The notes under the pieces were generated by a model. That model was not told the origin of the DNA. It made no database searches and saw only the letters and a list, made by a program, of their open reading frames with translations. The translations under genes and the position numbers were made by a program. Positions 1 through 14,053 of a stretch of DNA of 64,000 bases are shown in pieces. Within the stretch, counting starts at the first letter, position 1. Each line of letters starts with the position of its first letter. This DNA comes from Inconstantimicrobium porci (GTDB lineage Bacteria > Bacillota > Clostridia > Clostridiales > Clostridiaceae), in NCBI RefSeq assembly GCF_009696465.1, contig NZ_VULX01000002.1, positions 1 through 64,000 on the forward strand. Reading direction: 5' to 3'.

Positions 1-114
1 GAACTTAAGTTAGAATTAAGAAGTTATGTATTATGGTATAACAATAAACGCATTCATAGTTCTTTAAACTATATGACTCCAGTTGAGTATAGACTTGCAA
101 ATATGACCGAATAA
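1..114 (+). mobile_element. 3' end of an IS3-family (IS150-like OrfB) transposase, cut by the window edge
   Basis: The first 37 codons read in frame 1 to a TAA at 112-114. The residues include YNNKRIHSSLNYMTPVEYR, the conserved C-terminal tail of IS3-family OrfB integrases (rve superfamily, 'YN..R.HSSL.Y.TP.E'). The catalytic DDE part lies outside the window, so intactness cannot be judged. The element ends close to the ribosome site of the next gene: a TTGACA hexamer lies at 133-138, between the transposase stop and that site. No terminal repeat can be confirmed from one end. Confidence 0.85.
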
Positions 115-159: not shown

Positions 160-705
160 ATGACAGTAGGTGAAAATATTCGGCGTATTCGTCAAGAGCG
201 CGGCCTTACATTGAAACAACTAGGTGACATGGTAGGAGTAAGTGAAGCATATATACGTGCCTATGAAACCGGGCGTAGGAACCCTAAGATAAAATCGTTA
301 GAAGCGATAGCACAGGCTCTTGCAGTCAATGTAGAAGTATTAACTAATTCTGAATTTGACGGTATAAAAGCCATGCATAGACTCTTTCAAGTATTCCGTC
401 AATATTACGGACAACTATTTGAATATCAGGATAAAGATGGAAATGATATGGTCGGAATCAGTTTTGGAACACTTGCTTTGATGAATTCATGGTTAGACCG
501 CTATAATCAATATATGCAGGAAGTCGAAGAATGTAATAAGATAAAAGATGTTAAGAAACGTAGAGAAGCTCTGCTAAAATCCGAAGCAGATTTTAATCTC
601 TGGATGGATATTTATCCAGAGTCAGAGCCTTTCCCAATGAATTTGCAGATACAAAAAACACATGATGAGTTTATGGATAAGATTGGATTGGAGCCGAAAG
701 AATAA
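160..705 (+). CDS. XRE-family (HTH_3) transcriptional regulator
   Basis: A 181-residue protein. The N-terminal part (residues 4-60) is a Cro/CI helix-turn-helix with the typical sequence GLTLKQLGDMVGVSEAYIR followed by YETGRRNPK. The rest (about 65-181) is a helical domain I do not recognise, probably for oligomerisation or ligand sensing. I chose the ATG at 160 because AGGAGG lies at 145-150; a longer frame from GTG at 130 would place that ribosome site inside the gene. It sits between an IS3-type transposase end and a PD-(D/E)XK nuclease gene on the same strand, so it may control that nuclease. This is inference from position only. Confidence 0.85.
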   Translation: MTVGENIRRIRQERGLTLKQLGDMVGVSEAYIRAYETGRRNPKIKSLEAIAQALAVNVEVLTNSEFDGIKAMHRLFQVFRQYYGQLFEYQDKDGNDMVGISFGTLALMNSWLDRYNQYMQEVEECNKIKDVKKRREALLKSEADFNLWMDIYPESEPFPMNLQIQKTHDEFMDKIGLEPKE

Positions 706-743: not shown

Positions 744-1742
744 ATGCTATATAAACTTTTAAACAATAAATCAGACTATTCCAAAGTTAACCGGGTTACT
801 CTTGCAGATATTGGTTGGAAAGAACTTGACTTACAAAATCTTCTATCAAAACACATACAAGATTTTATCTATTCAAACGAATTATTAACAATATTTAATG
901 AACGTCCTCGTCAAGAAGAACCTGATATTCTTGCTCTAGATAGAAATGGTGATTTGTATATTTTAGAACTTAAAAGATGGAGTTCAAATCAAGAAAACTT
1001 ACTTCAAGTATTACGTTATGGACAACTATATGGAAATAGTAATTATGAAGAGCTTAATGAACTATATCAAAAATTTTGTTCATCTCATACTGATTTATAT
1101 GAAACTCATAAAAACTATTTTGAATTAAATGATTCTTCTGCATTATCAAAATCTGATTTCAATAGACAGCAACATTTCTTAATTATTACTAATGGTTTAG
1201 ATCAAAAAACTGTAGAAGCCATAAGCTATTGGAAAAAGAACGGTCTTAACATTGATGCTATTATTTATTGGGTTTTTGAAATAAATGGTGAATATTTCAT
1301 AGAATTTAATATGTATTCACCTATAGAAGGTTATCTAGAATATGAAGGATATAATTATGTGCTAAATACAAATTATTCTAATAATAAACAACACACTGAT
1401 GATATGCTTAGGGAACATAAAGCTGCAGCATATTACCCTGGTTGGCGTGAAAAAATATCAAGATTTCAGAAAGGTGATACTATATTTTTATATAAAAGTG
1501 GTTTCGGAATAGTTGCATACGGAACCGCTAACGGAAAGCTTGAAATGAAAGATTGTGACGGTTATGCAGATTATGAATATTTTATGCACCTTGATAACTT
1601 TCATATCCTATCTAAACCAATGAGCGCCGCTGAAATGAAAAAAATTACACAACAGGGATTTCCTTTCAGAACTACATTGTTTAATTTAAGTGAAGAATGT
1701 AAAGATAAAATACTTAAAGAAATCCACAAAAATTATCTCTAA
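744..1742 (+). CDS. PD-(D/E)XK (NucS/DUF91-like) nuclease with a probable C-terminal EVE/PUA-like domain
   Basis: A 332-residue protein. Residues about 30-100 resemble the endonuclease NucS/DUF91 fold: an invariant-looking Asp61 in EEPDILALD, then E75-x-K77 in LYILELKRW, which gives the D...E-x-K signature. The middle (about 140-195) continues the nuclease-like fold. Residues about 220-315 look like an EVE/YTH/PUA-type domain: a YYPGW segment, then FQKGDTIFLYKSG and a GIVAYGTA strand. In known proteins such domains bind modified bases, and their fusion to nucleases makes modification-dependent restriction enzymes. The start at ATG 744 follows GGAGG at 731-735. The neighbours are an XRE regulator and an IS3-type transposase end, as in an accessory or defence patch. 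The nuclease call is fairly secure; the EVE assignment is by pattern only. Confidence 0.7.
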   Translation: MLYKLLNNKSDYSKVNRVTLADIGWKELDLQNLLSKHIQDFIYSNELLTIFNERPRQEEPDILALDRNGDLYILELKRWSSNQENLLQVLRYGQLYGNSNYEELNELYQKFCSSHTDLYETHKNYFELNDSSALSKSDFNRQQHFLIITNGLDQKTVEAISYWKKNGLNIDAIIYWVFEINGEYFIEFNMYSPIEGYLEYEGYNYVLNTNYSNNKQHTDDMLREHKAAAYYPGWREKISRFQKGDTIFLYKSGFGIVAYGTANGKLEMKDCDGYADYEYFMHLDNFHILSKPMSAAEMKKITQQGFPFRTTLFNLSEECKDKILKEIHKNYL

Positions 1743-1838: not shown

Positions 1839-3380
1839 TTATTCAAACTCAATAGTAGCTGGTGGCTTTCCTGTTAGGTCATACAGTACTCTGTTGACAC
1901 CTTTTACTTCATTTACAATTCTTCTTGTTACTGTTCCTAATACTTCCCATGGAAGTTCTGCTGATTCAGCTGTCATGAAATCACTAGTGTTTACTGCTCT
2001 TAGAGCTATTGCGTAATCATAAGTTCTTCCGTCTCCCATAACTCCTACTGAACGCATGTTAGTAAGTGCCGCAAAGTATTGTCCGATGTTTTTGTCTACT
2101 CCTGCTTTTGCTATTTCTTCTCTATAAATAGCATCTGCTTCCTGAACTATCTTTACTTTTTCAGCTGTAACTTCACCAATTATACGAATTCCAAGACCTG
2201 GTCCTGGGAAAGGCTGTCTGTATACAAGCTTTTCAGGTATTCCAAGTTCAAGTCCAGCTTTTCTTACTTCATCTTTGAAAAGAAGTCTTAATGGTTCGAT
2301 TATTTCCTTAAAGTCAACATAATCAGGAAGTCCTCCAACATTATGATGTGACTTTATTACTGCTGATTTTCCAAGTCCACTTTCAATAACATCAGGGTAA
2401 ATTGTTCCCTGAACAAGGAAATCTACCTTTCCTATCTTTTTAGCTTCTTCTTCAAATACTCTGATGAATTCTTCACCGATAATCTTTCTCTTCTTTTCAG
2501 GATCTTCAACGCCTTTAAGTTTTTCGTAGAATCTATCCTGAGCATTTACTCTGATAAAATTAAGGTCATATGGGCCGTTTGGTCCAAATACTTCTTCAAC
2601 TTCATCTCCTTCATCTTTACGAAGAAGACCATGATCAACAAACACACATGTAAGCTGCTTGCCAATTGCCTTTGATAAAAGAACTGCAGCAACTGATGAA
2701 TCTACTCCACCTGATAAAGCACAAAGAGCTCTGCCATTACCTACTTTTTCACGGATTTCCTTTATTGTCTTTTCAACAAAAGAATCCATCTTCCAGTCTC
2801 CAGCACACTTACAAATATCCATAACAAAGTTTCTTATCATCTTTATTCCTTCAACTGTATGCATTACTTCAGGATGGAACTGAACTGCATATAAATTCTT
2901 CTCACTGCATTCCATAGCTGCAACTGGGCACACTGGTGTTTTTGCTGTTACTACAAATCCTTGTGGAGCTTTTTCTATGTAATCTGTATGACTCATCCAG
3001 CATATTGTTTTTTCTGATACACCATTAAATAGCTTTGAGTCTGTCTTTACCTCTACTTCTGTCTTACCATATTCACTTACAGGAGCAGTTTTAACACTTC
3101 CTCCAAGCATATAAGACATCATTTGAGAACCATAACATATACCAAGCACTGGTATTCCCATGTTGAATAATTCTTTATTGCATAATGGTGAATCTTCACC
3201 ATATACACTGTTAGGTCCACCTGTAAAAATTATTCCCTTTGGATTCATTTCTTTTATTTTTTCTAAACTTAATGTATATGGATGTACTTCACAATATACA
3301 TGACATTCTCTTACTCTTCTTGCTATAAGCTGGTTGTACTGACCGCCGAAATCTAAAACTAAAACTAATTCTTTTTTCAT
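1839..3380 (-). CDS. guaA: GMP synthase (glutamine-hydrolysing)
   Basis: Converts XMP to GMP with ATP and glutamine, in the cytoplasm. The 513-residue length is normal. The N-terminal class I glutamine amidotransferase domain has the nucleophile loop GICYG and the QFHPE histidine-glutamate motif. The ATP-pyrophosphatase domain has the P-loop SGGVDSS, and the C-terminal dimerisation domain ends in PPATIEFE, as usual. I start at ATG 3380 because GGAGG lies about eight bases upstream; a TTG twelve bases further out would overlap it. guaB lies upstream on the same strand, but a hairpin between the two suggests that guaA has its own transcript or depends on read-through. No purine riboswitch is visible directly in front of guaA. 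Confidence 0.97.
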
Positions 3381-3429
3381 TTTATCCTCCAAGAACTATA
3401 TTTTCAAATCATTAAGTATCCTTAACTTA

Positions 3430-5401: not shown

Positions 5402-6132
5402 TTAATATAAATCTGGAAGAGATTCATCACTAATCTTTACTGTTGCAGGGAATTTATTTGAATTAACTTCTAATATGCTTGTACATGCACTTCCCTTCTC
5501 AGTAATGTTATCAGTTAACTTTATATTATATAAAATATAAACTGTATCTCCTGATGACAATCCTGCTCTAATACTAGTTGAATCTATATTAGTAAACTCC
5601 ACTACTTTTCAAGTTGTTTTGTTGATTTATTCACCTTATAAATAACAGGTTTACTGATAATTTTTCCGTTTACAACACTTATCTTAGGTTCAATTGCGCC
5701 TGTATAAGTAAAACTTGCTGCCATTGCCACTCTTGATCCTCTTGGAAAAGATAAATTATTGCTTATATCTATTACCTGATTTCCTTTATATACACCATGT
5801 ATAATATTGAAAGCATTAATAAATACAGGCGTTTTTATAGCTTCCTTTTCATACTCTCCACTTATTTTATTCTCCTCCAGAATATATTGCACTGTTGAAA
5901 GAAGCTTTTTGTTATTTACTATATCACCATCATCAACGCAGTCATCAGGAGTAGGAACTTCAATACATTTGTTTATACTAAGCTTATTTTTAAAGTACAT
6001 TCCTTGCACGATTTTGATATTGCTGCTTCCAATATCAAAGGCCACAACTTTTTTTCTAGTCTCTATTTTTGTAGAATTATTAAGCTTTTTTAGTTTTTTC
6101 AAAAAGCTTAAGTTCAGATCCTTAATATCCAT
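5402..6132 (-). pseudogene. Relic joining the N-terminus of PilM to part of another, possibly pilin-like protein; frameshifted
   Basis: The first ~90 codons give a PilM/FtsA-like actin-fold start (VVAFDIGSSNIKIVQG, the phosphate-1 motif, then VPTPDDCVDDGDIVNNKKL). After about ILEENKI the similarity to PilM stops. PilM is normally about 350 residues, so about 250 are missing. The next stretch (FPRGSRVAMAASFTYTGAI ...) looks like the globular part of a minor pseudopilin or other pilus protein. The frame stops at TAG 5602-5604, but a +1 shift at AAAAGTAGTGG continues the protein (VVEFTNIDSTSIRAGL ... to SLPDLY) down to 5402. I read it as two pilus genes fused by deletion and then frameshifted. 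It is unlikely to be functional. Confidence 0.65.
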
Positions 6133-6220
6133 CTACATCCAGCTTTTCTTATTAGCTTTGTCCTCCATTGCCCTGATCCTTTCCATATTTCCATAAGTTA
6201 CTTCCCCATTATATAGACTA

Positions 6221-6251
6221 AAGTGTAAAGTCTAAAGAGACTTTACACTTT
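6221..6251 (-). terminator. Hairpin after the second pilin gene (weak terminator or processing site)
   Basis: AAGTGTAAAGTCT and AGACTTTACACTT pair over 13 bases. On the minus strand only a short T-run follows. It sits just after the pilin at 6265-6687 and before the pilM relic, where such stems often set a high pilin level. Confidence 0.55.
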
Positions 6252-6264
6252 ATAATCTTGTTAT

Positions 6265-6687
6265 TTACTTCTTCTCGAAATCTTTTCCTTGCTTTGGATA
6301 AACTTCATTATCATTCCCATTTGCTGGTTTATCACCTGCATAAATTGTTATATTTCCACTGTTATCAAGATATACCTTAAAGTCAGCATTCTCTATTTTA
6401 GATTTTGTTCCGCCTGCATCTAGGCTGCTTGTAACATTGTATCCACCAACAGAGCTTAATCCATATGGTGTCTCTGCTGCTGGGAGTGTTACCTTTTCAT
6501 TAGCTATTGCCTGTGCTACAACAGAGTGGATATTTTTAGCATTTGCTATATCAGTTGTTACATTCGCATTATGTCTTATTGTTGCAAACTTTGGTATAGC
6601 AATGGCTGCAAGTATTGCTATAATAGCAATTACAATGATTAACTCTATAAGAGTAAATCCTTTCTTCTTTTTATTCACTTTAAACAT
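6265..6687 (-). CDS. Type IV pilin (second copy)
   Basis: A 140-residue prepilin. It has a short basic leader, then the class III signal K-K-G/F-T-L-I-E with cleavage expected after the glycine and Glu at mature position 5. The hydrophobic helix runs LIIVIAIIAILAAIAIPKF. The globular part (about 40-140) has the Gram-positive pilin pattern ending in VYPKQGKDFEKK. The first 60 residues are almost identical to the upstream pilin at 6712-7110, but the globular domains diverge, so this is a tandem duplication with diversification. The frame is intact while the pilus motor genes next to it are broken. An intact peptidase (8816-9568) could still process it. Confidence 0.93.
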   Translation of the reverse strand: MFKVNKKKKGFTLIELIIVIAIIAILAAIAIPKFATIRHNANVTTDIANAKNIHSVVAQAIANEKVTLPAAETPYGLSSVGGYNVTSSLDAGGTKSKIENADFKVYLDNSGNITIYAGDKPANGNDNEVYPKQGKDFEKK

Positions 6688-6711
6688 ATTTATCGCCCTT
6701 TAATTATACAA

Positions 6712-7110
6712 TTAATTTTTTTGATAATTTTCACCCTGTGTTGGATATACAATATCCTTATCATCATCAGTACCACCATATACTTTTATATCGCCATCAG
6801 TAACTACAACTCTAAATGCATTACCAGATACTTTTGATTTTACTTGATCAGCATCTATACTATTTTTAATTGCATCATCAGCAGATGTTAACGATGTTGT
6901 AGCACTTATTTTTTCATTTGCTATACCTTGTGCTACTATTGAGTGAATATTTTTAGCATTCGCTATATCTGTTGTGATATTAGCATTTTTTCTTATTGTT
7001 GCGAACTTTGGAATTGCTATAGCTGCTAATATGGCTATGATTGCAATTACGATGATTAACTCGATAAGAGTAAATCCTTTCTTCTTTTTGTTTACGACTT
7101 TTTTACCCAT
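6712..7110 (-). CDS. Type IV pilin (first copy)
   Basis: A 132-residue prepilin with leader MGKKVVNKKKKG, then FTLIELIIVIAIIAIL and the conserved AIPKFATIRKNAN. The globular half ends in IVYPTQGENYQKN. A strong ribosome site (GGAGGGGATAGT) precedes the ATG at 7110. It shares its N-terminal half with the next gene downstream, 24 bases away. The frame is intact. Its context is a type IV pilus locus whose assembly ATPase and platform protein are damaged, so the pilin may now be unused or assembled by machinery encoded elsewhere. Confidence 0.93.
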   Translation of the reverse strand: MGKKVVNKKKKGFTLIELIIVIAIIAILAAIAIPKFATIRKNANITTDIANAKNIHSIVAQGIANEKISATTSLTSADDAIKNSIDADQVKSKVSGNAFRVVVTDGDIKVYGGTDDDKDIVYPTQGENYQKN

Positions 7111-7137
7111 ACTATCCCCTCCAAAAATATAAATAAT

Positions 7138-7842
7138 TTAGATTTGAGTATAACTGTCGTACATCGGAAGCATTATAGAAATTATTATGAATCCTATTAC
7201 AAATCCCATTACAACTATTAAAAGTGGTTCCATTAAAGCGAAAGTCGCCTGCAGCTGTGTTTCTACTTCTTCATCATAAAAGTCAGCTGTTTTGTTTAAG
7301 ATATCGTCAAGAGATCCTGATTCTTCTCCTATCTTTGCCATAGAAGAAAGCATAGCTGGAAAAATCTCAGCTTCCTTTATTGATGAATTCAGCGTCTTAC
7401 CTACTATAACTTTTTCCCTTACACCTTCAATTGCTGTCTACGCAATCCTATTTCCTAGTGATGACGAAACTATTGGAAGTGCCTGAGCTAAAGTTATACC
7501 GCTTGATAATAAAGTTGATAAAGTTCTTGTAAATCGTGATACAATTATTTTCTGATTAAGCTTCTTTAATATAGGCAGTTTGAGCTTAAGGCTGCTTGTA
7601 AAAACTCTCCCCCGCTCTGTTTTAGTGAAATATTTTATTGCAATACCAATTCCTGCTATTGCAATTGCGATCATTATAAAGTGATTTCTAAAAGCGTTGC
7701 TCATTCCAATAAGGAACCTAGTTGACCAAGGAAGAGCTGTACCGCTTTCTTCAAAGATGCCTGTAAAAGTAGGCAATACAAATGTCATTATTACTATTCT
7801 TTTGCCATCATTGCTGATGGCTTTATACTTGAATTTACTCAT
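7138..7842 (-). pseudogene. pilC: pilC-like inner-membrane platform protein, internally deleted and with a nonsense codon
   Basis: PilC/GspF proteins are about 400 residues; here about 234 remain. The start MSKFKYKAISNDGKRI is a normal PilC N-terminus. It runs directly into VIMTFVLPTFTGIFEESG, the region around the first transmembrane helix, so roughly 150 residues are missing in frame. Translation then stops at a TAG at 7438-7440, just after IVSSSLGNRIA. The same frame continues with TAIEGVREKVIVGKTL and the well-conserved tail IGEESGSLDDIL ... LLIVVMGFVIGFIIISIMLPMYD. One nonsense mutation and one deletion therefore break an otherwise recognisable gene. The ATG at 7842 has the ribosome site GGGGGAA. 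It follows pilB by 15 bases. Confidence 0.9.
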
Positions 7843-7857
7843 AGCTTATTCCCCCTT

Positions 7858-8719
7858 CTAAATTTCTTTTAAAATCGTTATAGTTGCAAGTTTATTCATA
7901 GTTGTCACGCCATCAAGTACAAGCTTCTTACATTCGTCTCCTAAAGAACTCATACCATTTTGCACTGCTATATCTCGTATTTCATCCATAGTCTTATGTG
8001 AAGTTATAGCTTCTTTAAGCTTTCTTGTAACTTCCATCACCTCATATACGCCAGTTCTTCCTGAGTATCCTGTATTATTACAGTATCCACAGCCTTTGCC
8101 TTTGTATAAAGTTAATGGCTTGTCCTCATCAACGCCTAAAACTTGTTTCTCATAGGAAGTAGCTTCATATGCTTGTCTGCATTTAGGGCATATCTTTCTT
8201 ACAAGTCTCTGTGCTATAATTCCTGCTATTGATGTTGATACAAGATACGGCTGAATACCCATATCTACAAGTCTAACTATAGATGAAGGTGCATCATTTG
8301 TATGCAGTGTACTGAAAACAAGATGTTCTTTACCTACTTTATAATTTTTCTTATCAAGTATTCTGATAACTACCTTTTCGCCAAAAACTACAGGCAGAAT
8401 AGAAACTCTCATATCTACCTCATTATCACCAACTCTTGTAATTATTCTTCCATCCTGAGGATTAATAAACTTTTTAATTACTGATGCTTTTGAAATAAAA
8501 GGTACTATTTCAAATCCCGTTGATATCGCAACGTCATCTATAGCATAAATATTTAAAGGATCAGCCATTGCAAGCTTTATACTATTATTTTCAAAAGCAA
8601 AAGGTACAACTTCATATTTATCACAAAGATTCTGAGGTACAAGACCTATTACTTTTCTATCGAATTTTATACTATTAAGATCTACTTCTTCAATTCCAGT
8701 CTTTTTTAGCTCTAGCCAT
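7858..8719 (-). pseudogene. pilB: pilB-like type IV pilus extension ATPase, without Walker motifs
   Basis: PilB is normally about 560 residues; here about 285 are left. From ATG 8719 (ribosome site GGGAGAG) the reading MARAKK hits a stop three codons later. Shifted by one base it continues as [20 protein letters not shown], so there is a deletion with frameshift near 8700. From [14 protein letters not shown] the frame is open, but [13 protein letters not shown] jumps to [18 protein letters not shown]. Then [14 protein letters not shown] jumps to [17 protein letters not shown]. The second jump removes the Walker A P-loop, the Asp box and Walker B. The zinc-binding tetracysteine (CPKC ... CGYC) and the C-terminus are kept. 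It cannot be an active ATPase. Confidence 0.92.
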
Positions 8720-8815
8720 AAAACTCTCCCTTCAAAATATTGACGATTTTCCTAAATTATTCTACTTTATATTATACTTGGTTATTATGTGTTTTCAACC
8801 ATTTTGTTATTATTT

Positions 8816-9568
8816 TTATACAAAAAAAGACATGTACCACGAAATTACTTCTGCTCCAAATAGGAGTGATATTATAGTCCCAATTGCCAGGCTTGGACCA
8901 AATGCCATTTCATCTTTACAGCCTTTTTTTCTTCTTACAACTAATATAACTGCCGCAGTTCCTCCAATAACAAATGCAAGGAATAATCCTACTGCCAGAA
9001 GCTTTAAACCAAGAAACAAGCCACATATTAAAGCAATTTCTATATCGCCTTCGCCCATTCCTTTTGTTACCACAACTATTACTAAGATAATTAAAAAACC
9101 TACAGCTGCACCAATAACATAAGTCATTATTTTTTCTTTAAAAACTGCTGCTTCTATTACTGTAAAAACTACTCCTGCAGCCATTGCAGTTAAAGTAGTA
9201 GATTTGTAAACATACTTTGTCTTTCCATCTATCATGCCAATAACAATTAACAGAGATACAAAAATAGCATACTTAAGTAAATTCATTGTAAAACCAAATT
9301 TATAATATAAAGCTACATATAGAACAGCGTTGAGTATTTCAATTAACGGATACTGAATAGAAATCTTCTGATGACAGTATCTGCATCTTCCTCTTAAGAA
9401 TAAATAACTTAAAACAGGAACAAGATCTAATACTCCAAGCCTATGATTACAACTGCTGCAATGAGAAGGCGGAAATGCTATAGACTGTTCTGCAGGTATT
9501 CTGTAAATACATACATTTAAAAAGCTTCCTATTACTAATCCTATAATTAATACAAATAAATAATCCAT
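8816..9568 (-). CDS. pilD: Prepilin leader peptidase / N-methyltransferase
   Basis: An A24-family aspartyl protease in the membrane, cleaving prepilin leaders after glycine and methylating the new N-terminus. It is 250 residues, the full family length. It has GSFLNVCIYRIP near the N-terminus and two CxxC pairs in the cytoplasmic zinc loop (CSSC and CRYC). About seven membrane helices follow, with two catalytic aspartates in GMIDGKTK and in GEGDIE. It heads the decayed pilus locus (pilB, pilC, two pilins, pilM relic downstream on the same strand), about 96 bases before pilB. Being intact, it may still serve the pilins here or other type IV pilin-like substrates. Confidence 0.93.
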   Translation of the reverse strand: MDYLFVLIIGLVIGSFLNVCIYRIPAEQSIAFPPSHCSSCNHRLGVLDLVPVLSYLFLRGRCRYCHQKISIQYPLIEILNAVLYVALYYKFGFTMNLLKYAIFVSLLIVIGMIDGKTKYVYKSTTLTAMAAGVVFTVIEAAVFKEKIMTYVIGAAVGFLIILVIVVVTKGMGEGDIEIALICGLFLGLKLLAVGLFLAFVIGGTAAVILVVRRKKGCKDEMAFGPSLAIGTIISLLFGAEVISWYMSFFV

Positions 9569-12763: not shown

Positions 12764-14053
12764 CCTATACTGCTGTACAATAGCACCAAGCATGATCCAA
12801 TAAATTGATGCGCAGGCTACCATGCTAATATTAACAAAACTCTGCATTAGATATGTGATAAAGAATAAGAACATAATTTTATATTTGTCATCATTATGCT
12901 TCTTCATTGCTCTAATAAGCTCTTTAAGAATAACTACAATTAATACAATGTAGCATATTAGTGATACAATTCCTCCACATGCCCATAACTCAATAAATTC
13001 ATTATGTGCTTTATCAATTATTTCATTGTACTTTTTTATAAATATCCTATGTTCCTCAAACTCATCCCTGTTAATCCTATATTGAAGAGAGTCAAGTCCA
13101 GCCCCCATGAATGGATGTTTCTCAATTGATTTCATTGTTATTATCCATATAGCTACTCTATTTGTACCTAAAGATCCAACACCTTTTTCGTCGACTTGTG
13201 ATATTTCTTGTCCAATACTACGAAATCTAGATGAAAGCTTTCCATTACTTGTTTGATTAAGCATAGTAAAAACTATCCCTAATGAAAAAATCACAATACC
13301 TGTTCTTATCCACAATTCTTTTCTCTTAATAACAAAAGATAATCCTACAACGCACATTATAGCAAACGCTATCCAGCATCCCCTTGTTGTTGTACATAAA
13401 AGCGCCCCAAAGAGAATTAGTGAGCAGACATAATATATCTTTTCTCCTTTAAATATATAAAGTGGTACTGATAAACTCAAAAAAATCAATATATACGTTG
13501 AAGCAAAATTTTTATTTCCTATAAGCGCAATTGAGCCAAAAGAAATTATTTTTTTACTTAGTATACTTAAGAATATATCGAAGCCATAAAACTGCAGAAT
13601 ACAGTAAATTCCCATTATACATGAAACTATAAGCACTGCTTTAATCATTTTTTTAGTTATTTTAAGATACTTAGCTGACATTAGAAATGAAAGGAAATAA
13701 ATACCAAGTATAATAAGTCCTTCACCCCTGTCCTGCTTTCCTATTATTGCTGTATCTATATCTATAGAAAATATTGTTGTGAACACAAGACTTGCGAAAT
13801 AACATAGTACAATTATTTTTTCCTTGTACATTTTCATCATTTCATTCTTAGTCAGTACTGCTGCAAATAATAGTATAGTTCCTGCTATATACATAAAAAG
13901 CAGCTTTGCTCCAAGATATGGACTGTAATAATTTCTTGTCACAATAAAAGGCATTACCAATACTATACTGTATAAAATCACATTAATAATTTTACATGGA
14001 GATATCTCTCTTGTTGTCATATACTCCACAAACTTCTTAAAACCCAAACCCAT
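12716..14053 (-). CDS. O-antigen ligase / polymerase (Wzy/WaaL-like) family membrane protein
   Basis: A 445-residue polytopic membrane protein with 11-12 hydrophobic segments. It carries the Wzy_C (PF04932) pattern: GNKNFAST in the middle, CTTTRGCWIAFAI, and the large outer loop with GAGLDSLQYRINRDEF then DKAHNEFIELWACGG. The family transfers or polymerises lipid-linked sugar chains. In Gram-positive cells, members act on teichoic-type or capsular polymers, but the substrate cannot be told here. It stands alone, not in a sugar cluster. It ends in TAG and overlaps the convergent DUF1461 gene by 48 bases. Confidence 0.85.
   Translation of the reverse strand: MGLGFKKFVEYMTTREISPCKIINVILYSIVLVMPFIVTRNYYSPYLGAKLLFMYIAGTILLFAAVLTKNEMMKMYKEKIIVLCYFASLVFTTIFSIDIDTAIIGKQDRGEGLIILGIYFLSFLMSAKYLKITKKMIKAVLIVSCIMGIYCILQFYGFDIFLSILSKKIISFGSIALIGNKNFASTYILIFLSLSVPLYIFKGEKIYYVCSLILFGALLCTTTRGCWIAFAIMCVVGLSFVIKRKELWIRTGIVIFSLGIVFTMLNQTSNGKLSSRFRSIGQEISQVDEKGVGSLGTNRVAIWIITMKSIEKHPFMGAGLDSLQYRINRDEFEEHRIFIKKYNEIIDKAHNEFIELWACGGIVSLICYIVLIVVILKELIRAMKKHNDDKYKIMFLFFITYLMQSFVNISMVACASIYWIMLGAIVQQYRLAKEEEPDNVNAMSL

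Follow-up and report, generated by a model that had tools for sequence, protein, structure and literature searches.

EVE-PD(D/E)XK fusions, in which the reader may stand at either end of the protein, have been described as putative type IV, i.e., modification-dependent, enzymes (Bell, Wolf and Koonin 2020, PMC7641849). The main text of that study mentions neither NucS nor DUF91. The EVE-HNH modification-dependent endonuclease VcaM4I (6yex) was shown to flip 5mC and 5hmC and to restrict T4gt. PDC-S11 is a single-gene phage-defense candidate in PADLOC. In the literature that we searched, we found neither phage tests of PDC-S11 nor experiments on EVE-PD(D/E)XK fusions.

The window, by which we mean the whole stretch of DNA that we analyzed, is the first 64 kb of a 237-kb contig whose start falls within an IS3-type element. 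Near this end lies a gene whose product combines a predicted NucS-like nuclease half with a predicted EVE/YTH-like reader half (Table 1). Our preferred explanation, which we hold with moderate confidence, is that it is accessory DNA at the integration hotspot at the 3' end of guaA and on its own encodes a restriction nuclease of the modification-dependent (type IV-like) kind. The direct basis for this explanation consists of the gene itself, the conserved nuclease motif, the fold of the reader, the modularity of the two parts and a patchy, island-like distribution. The protein is a divergent example of an already predicted kind, that of the EVE-PD(D/E)XK fusions and PDC-S11. As in the fusions described in PMC7641849, the same two parts are joined in one polypeptide; however, the reader here is a divergent one that does not reach the Pfam cut-off for EVE, and the nuclease appears to be of the NucS_C/PDC-S11 type. 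VcaM4I is also a reader-nuclease fusion, and it is the best Foldseek match of our C-terminal domain. However, VcaM4I has an HNH nuclease and an N-terminal reader, whereas the present protein has a predicted PD-(D/E)XK nuclease and a C-terminal reader. The pocket residues of VcaM4I are P24, W82 and Y130, and the likeness to the domain studied here is at the level of the fold.

Table 1. Coordinates of the features discussed. Positions are those of the window; where a label such as L005 precedes them, they are those of the sequence so labeled.
Feature	Position	Strand	Basis
IS3-type transposase gene, C-terminal end	1..114	+	sequence; contig begins inside
XRE-family HTH regulator gene	160..705	+	Pfam HTH_3, E 6e-16
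332-aa nuclease-EVE/YTH fusion gene	744..1742, including stop	+	ORF, GGAGG at 731-735, full-length relatives
Predicted PD-(D/E)XK nuclease domain, NucS-C / PDC-S11 type	744..1328, residues 1-195	+	PADLOC, hhalign, invariant residues
D61 codon, putative catalytic Asp of motif II	924..926	+	invariant in 19 homologues; aligns with D160 of 2vld
E75-L-K77 codons, E-x-K motif III	966..974 (E75, 966-968; K77, 972-974)	+	invariant in 19 homologues; aligns with E174/K176 of 2vld
Q88-xxx-Y92 motif codons	1005..1019	+	invariant in 19 homologues
Predicted divergent EVE/YTH-like (PUA-superfamily) domain	1341..1739, residues 200-332	+	13-member alignment, Pfam, hhalign, AF2 and PDB fold matches
guaA (GMP synthase)	1839..3392	-	ORF; 3' end faces nuclease gene
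Ribbon-helix-helix + reader proteins	L005:4716-5396, L006:4734-5414, L066:1992-2597, L067:4602-5393, L068:4737-5387		
Stand-alone reader copies, 132-141 aa	L061:5008-5406, L062:4986-5411, L063:107-511		
14-bp guaA 3'-end repeats TTGAGTGGGAATAG	L085:154-167 and 13412-13425		

The open reading frame lies exactly where a sequence-only reading of this DNA had located it. There is an alternative in-frame ATG at 729, but given the position of the GGAGG the start is likely the one in Table 1. The same reading had pointed to D61 and E75-x-K77 of a nuclease; both are at the positions claimed for them and are invariant in 19 homologues. In the alignment of these homologues, which reaches down to 16-21% identity, the sole invariant residues are E27, D61, E75, K77, Q88 and Y92, i.e., the PD-(D/E)XK signature together with a Q-xxx-Y motif, and invariance at such low identity argues that the motif does not arise by chance. 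In an alignment that is weak when taken alone, D61, E75, K77, Q88 and Y92 pair with D160, E174, K176, Q187 and Y191 of Pyrococcus abyssi NucS (2vld).

Profile comparisons point to the same nuclease family. Five PDC-S11 models of PADLOC match the N-terminal 195-266 residues, with E 7e-22 at best. However, the match of the window's protein stops short of the ends of the models, and PDC-S11-matching relatives bear other C-termini, which are RAMA-like in two cases; when the C-terminus of one full-length PDC-S11 member (L016) was compared with the reader domain, hhalign gave 5.5%. Pfam NucS_C matches the protein weakly (13.6 bits, where the cut-off is 24 bits), and it matches 17 of the 19 homologues at E 0.1 or better, the best at 4e-11. 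Using hhalign, the close family was matched to NucS_C-positive relatives at 98.4% (E 5e-15). In the full-length AlphaFold model the nuclease half is predicted poorly, with residues 35-101 below pLDDT 50. From profiles and conserved residues, then, we assign this half to the PD-(D/E)XK nucleases of the NucS_C/PDC-S11 type, with a fold predicted from sequence. When the phylum was searched, 22 further genomes proved to encode relatives of this N-terminal half. NucS/EndoMS has a homologous catalytic domain and the same D-E-x-K-Q-Y signature, but the present protein has no NucS N-terminal domain, an extra reader and an accessory distribution.

The C-terminal half contains YYPGW (230-234), FQKGDTIFLYKSG (241-253) and GIVAYGTA (255-262), all three of which had been noticed earlier and likened by eye to EVE/YTH domains. 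This call is upheld by sub-threshold Pfam matches, profile-profile comparison and fold searches. Pfam EVE (PF01878) is found in 7 of 13 reader members at E 1 or better, always below threshold (3.5e-4 at best); the domain in the window scores 13.1 bits and its best-scoring relative 21.0, short of the gathering cut-off of 23. We collected and aligned EVE domains from relatives of the source genome, and hhalign matched the reader profile to them at 84%, or at 90% (E 1.5e-6) with a broader alignment, whereas the nuclease half, used as a negative control in the same comparison, gave 0.4%. A PDB sequence search with the reader profile yielded no significant match, with the EVE-type 2p5d appearing at E 0.34 only.

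Structure models, which drew on five close sequences, were more informative in this half. The best-predicted part of the full-length model falls within residues 200-303, and these residues match 2p5d, 2hd9, VcaM4I, YTH domains and the EVE protein 2eve. An AF2 model of the reader domain alone reached pLDDT 72.8 and pTM 0.66. With this model, Foldseek ranked VcaM4I first (E 6.6e-4, TM 0.60), and the remainder of the first 50 matches were YTH, EVE-like and ASCH chains throughout. These top matches exclude the C-terminus as another nuclease subdomain. On re-alignment with VIA-align, 173 chains scored Z 8 or more. The highest scores were those of YTH domains (YTHDC2, YTHDF2 and the YTH-McrB of Thermococcus gammatolerans), up to Z 11.7 with an rmsd of 3.2 over 124 residues, and the EVE-type 2p5d reached Z 10.6, so that the structure scores place YTH and EVE about level. 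However, the identity to YTH domains is 5-9%, no clear tryptophan cage is seen here, and Pfam points to EVE. The same ambiguity between EVE and YTH is shown by prokaryotic readers elsewhere (Bell et al. 2020, PMC7641849). We therefore describe residues 200-332, as judged from profiles and models, as an EVE/YTH-like domain of the PUA superfamily and not as a strict Pfam EVE domain. A side observation from these searches is that DrmA of DISARM (7s9v/7s9w chain A, residues 13-117) matches the model at Z 5.8, so that the N-terminal part of DrmA may contain a PUA-like domain.

Across the 13 readers, the invariant residues are N208-T209-N210, M221, L249-Y250, G255-I256, A258, G260 and G264. In all three architectures in which the reader occurs (see below), conservation is highest in the N208-T209-N210 segment, which closes the first strand, and in the GIxAxG core. 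Such a pattern would suit a putative ligand pocket better than a purely structural role. In VcaM4I, Q10-T11 touch the flipped base, and by sequence order the N-T pair of our reader would take their position.

The reader is not confined to nucleases. With the C-terminal 133 residues as query, tblastn matched 147 plasmids at an identity of about 40%; most of these plasmids come from Klebsiella and E. coli. In these plasmid copies the reader follows a short N-terminal part that many records annotate as ribbon-helix-helix, and one of the plasmids has 2,762 bp and three genes only. Ribbon-helix-helix proteins with the reader are also encoded on chromosomes in the source family (L081-L084), where the RHH_1-like N-termini have RHH_1 E-values of 7e-4 to 2e-3, just under the cut-off. 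The third architecture is the reader on its own, which also occurs in the source family; one stand-alone copy (L061) has phage-like surroundings, as judged by eye from its neighbors. A literature search for an EVE domain combined with ribbon-helix-helix found nothing. A phage origin of the reader domain was rejected, because even at a threshold of E 10 none of 50,697 phage records matched it. Using the L005 and L016 proteins as queries likewise gave no match, and the 19 distant homologues make too diverse an alignment for a scan of viral contigs.

As a tentative and rather doubtful proposal, the reader may represent a new mobile subfamily of modified-base readers (xN[TS]N ... AA ... W ... GDxVFLY..xGIxAxG), joined to different effectors by mobile elements and hosts alike. 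These effectors would be a NucS-like nuclease restricting modified DNA; ribbon-helix-helix proteins of conjugative and tiny mobilizable plasmids, perhaps sensing the methylation of DNA or of an incoming rival; and stand-alone copies in prophage-like regions, perhaps shielding or competing for the same mark.

The complete nuclease-reader architecture is rare and patchy. A search for homologues with the same order of parts found full-length relatives at 69-77% identity (L002, L003, L004, L031 and L064). Within the genome collection, three MAGs have the architecture; it also occurs in one viral contig (in which an integrase adjoins the gene), in one further genome of the family (72%) and, at about 30% identity, in two Caballeronia plasmids. 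Expressed as frequencies, these are 2 of 206 family genomes and 1 of 398 genomes of the phylum sample. The surroundings of the relatives vary. L064 has type I specificity, restriction and modification genes as neighbors (the last identified by reading the sequence), L004 an AbiEii gene and an HNH protein gene, L031 a tyrosine integrase and a subtilase, and L007 a TIR protein, while in L002 and L003 the nuclease gene stands alone among ordinary genes.

In the window, guaA is located downstream of the nuclease gene and convergent with it, and is followed by the gene for IMP dehydrogenase. Genomic islands are known to integrate preferentially at the 3' end of guaA, and GAGTGGGA is the reported core of such islands (PMC7775301). 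Another genome of the same genus (L085) has a 13.3-kb island behind guaA between 14-bp direct repeats, TTGAGTGGGAATAG, which include GAGTGGGA; this island encodes a C5-cytosine DNA methylase together with other, unassigned genes and is probably a defense island. The corresponding site of a third genome contains the N-terminus of an integrase. Given the known hotspot, this island and this integrase, the nuclease gene sits in a variable, island-prone site. The window's guaA ends in GAGTTTGAATAA. No second copy of the guaA att repeat was found beside the nuclease gene, as the contig begins within the IS and its end cuts off the far side of any island. The IS3-type end itself has six identical copies genome-wide, the other five being on contigs C2, C13 (twice), C40 and C47. 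The two C13 copies encode a 124-aa transposase that is apparently internally deleted; since their ends are still identical, they may be mobilized, perhaps with the help of a full copy. Further along the window (5402-9568, reverse strand) is a cluster resembling type IV pilus or type II secretion genes, with pilin-like genes, pieces of an assembly ATPase and of a membrane protein, and a prepilin peptidase; several of its ORFs look interrupted.

Returning to the restriction nuclease that we favor, the parts and their conservation would fit VcaM4I-like, modification-dependent restriction with a different nuclease, and the gene shows the accessory, patchy distribution of type IV enzymes (2 of 206 family genomes, guaA hotspot). 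We infer DNA as the substrate, its cutting, base flipping, the kind of base and protection against phage by the following scheme. The EVE/YTH-like domain would flip a modified base (of the 5mC/5hmC type, or 6mA) out of the DNA and hold it in a pocket. Capture of the base would position or de-repress the N-terminal NucS-like PD-(D/E)XK domain, and D61, E75 and K77 with a divalent metal would cut the DNA nearby. Incoming DNA with modified bases would thus be cut, while host DNA without the mark would be spared. Because the host DNA would lack the mark, such an enzyme would not need a methyltransferase. No cognate methyltransferase gene was seen beside the nuclease gene in the window, L002, L003, L004 or L031, and the methyltransferase near the nuclease in L064 belongs to the neighboring type I system, which has its own genes.

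It is important to consider other explanations for the same gene. The same architecture might act on RNA, e.g., modified tRNA or phage transcripts, as an EVE/YTH-guided ribonuclease that causes abortive infection or serves as a toxin. We regard this as unlikely. Many EVE/YTH proteins read RNA, and both types of domain often bind it; however, the nuclease is assigned to the NucS_C/restriction-endonuclease lineage, whose characterized members act on DNA. In favor of an RNA target, EVE domains have been tied to PIN-GNAT toxin-antitoxin modules (Bell 2020, PMC7641849), and one relative is close to an AbiEii gene. However, no conserved antitoxin gene lies next to the nuclease in the relatives.

Just as improbable, in our estimation, is a defense or anti-plasmid nuclease that recognizes the structure of DNA (ends, branches or mismatches), with an EVE-like part that binds DNA or dimerizes and has no modified-base pocket. 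NucS relatives do cut branched or mismatched DNA, the sequence shows no obvious counterpart of the YTH tryptophan cage, and the quite different C-termini on other members of the nuclease family would also suit this explanation. The conservation of N208-T209-N210 and GIxAxG in all three architectures, however, seems to fit a ligand pocket better.

A two-gene unit, in which the nuclease is a toxin kept in check by the XRE protein as its regulator or antitoxin, appears less probable still. The sequence-only reading had noted an XRE regulator and an IS beside the nuclease and had brought both into a possible defense system. Both are present, and the XRE gene is on the same strand as the nuclease gene, 39 bp upstream, each with its own ribosome-binding site. 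However, partnership with the nuclease is not borne out: an XRE homologue is beside the nuclease in none of the close relatives L002, L003, L004, L031 and L064, and HTH regulators of this type are very common, each of the 39 genomes searched containing weak matches. The XRE gene is therefore probably a neighbor and not part of the nuclease unit.

Finally, a housekeeping NucS-type mismatch or repair nuclease, suggested by the NucS_C profile similarity, can be rejected with little hesitation, in view of an equivalog score of 17.6 bits against a cut-off of 216, a match to only positions 162-201 of the 250 in that model, the lack of a NucS N-terminal domain, the extra C-terminal reader, the patchy distribution and the hotspot location.

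If the modification-dependent restriction that we favor is correct, the gene would encode a compact one-gene enzyme of a class combining EVE/YTH with a NucS-type PD-(D/E)XK nuclease, for which the literature that we found holds predictions and no biochemistry. It would also provide a mechanism for part of PADLOC's PDC-S11 candidates. Beyond the nuclease, the reader is linked by sequence family to ribbon-helix-helix proteins on about 140 plasmids, most of them from Enterobacterales, and this link points to plasmids as possible readers of base modifications too.
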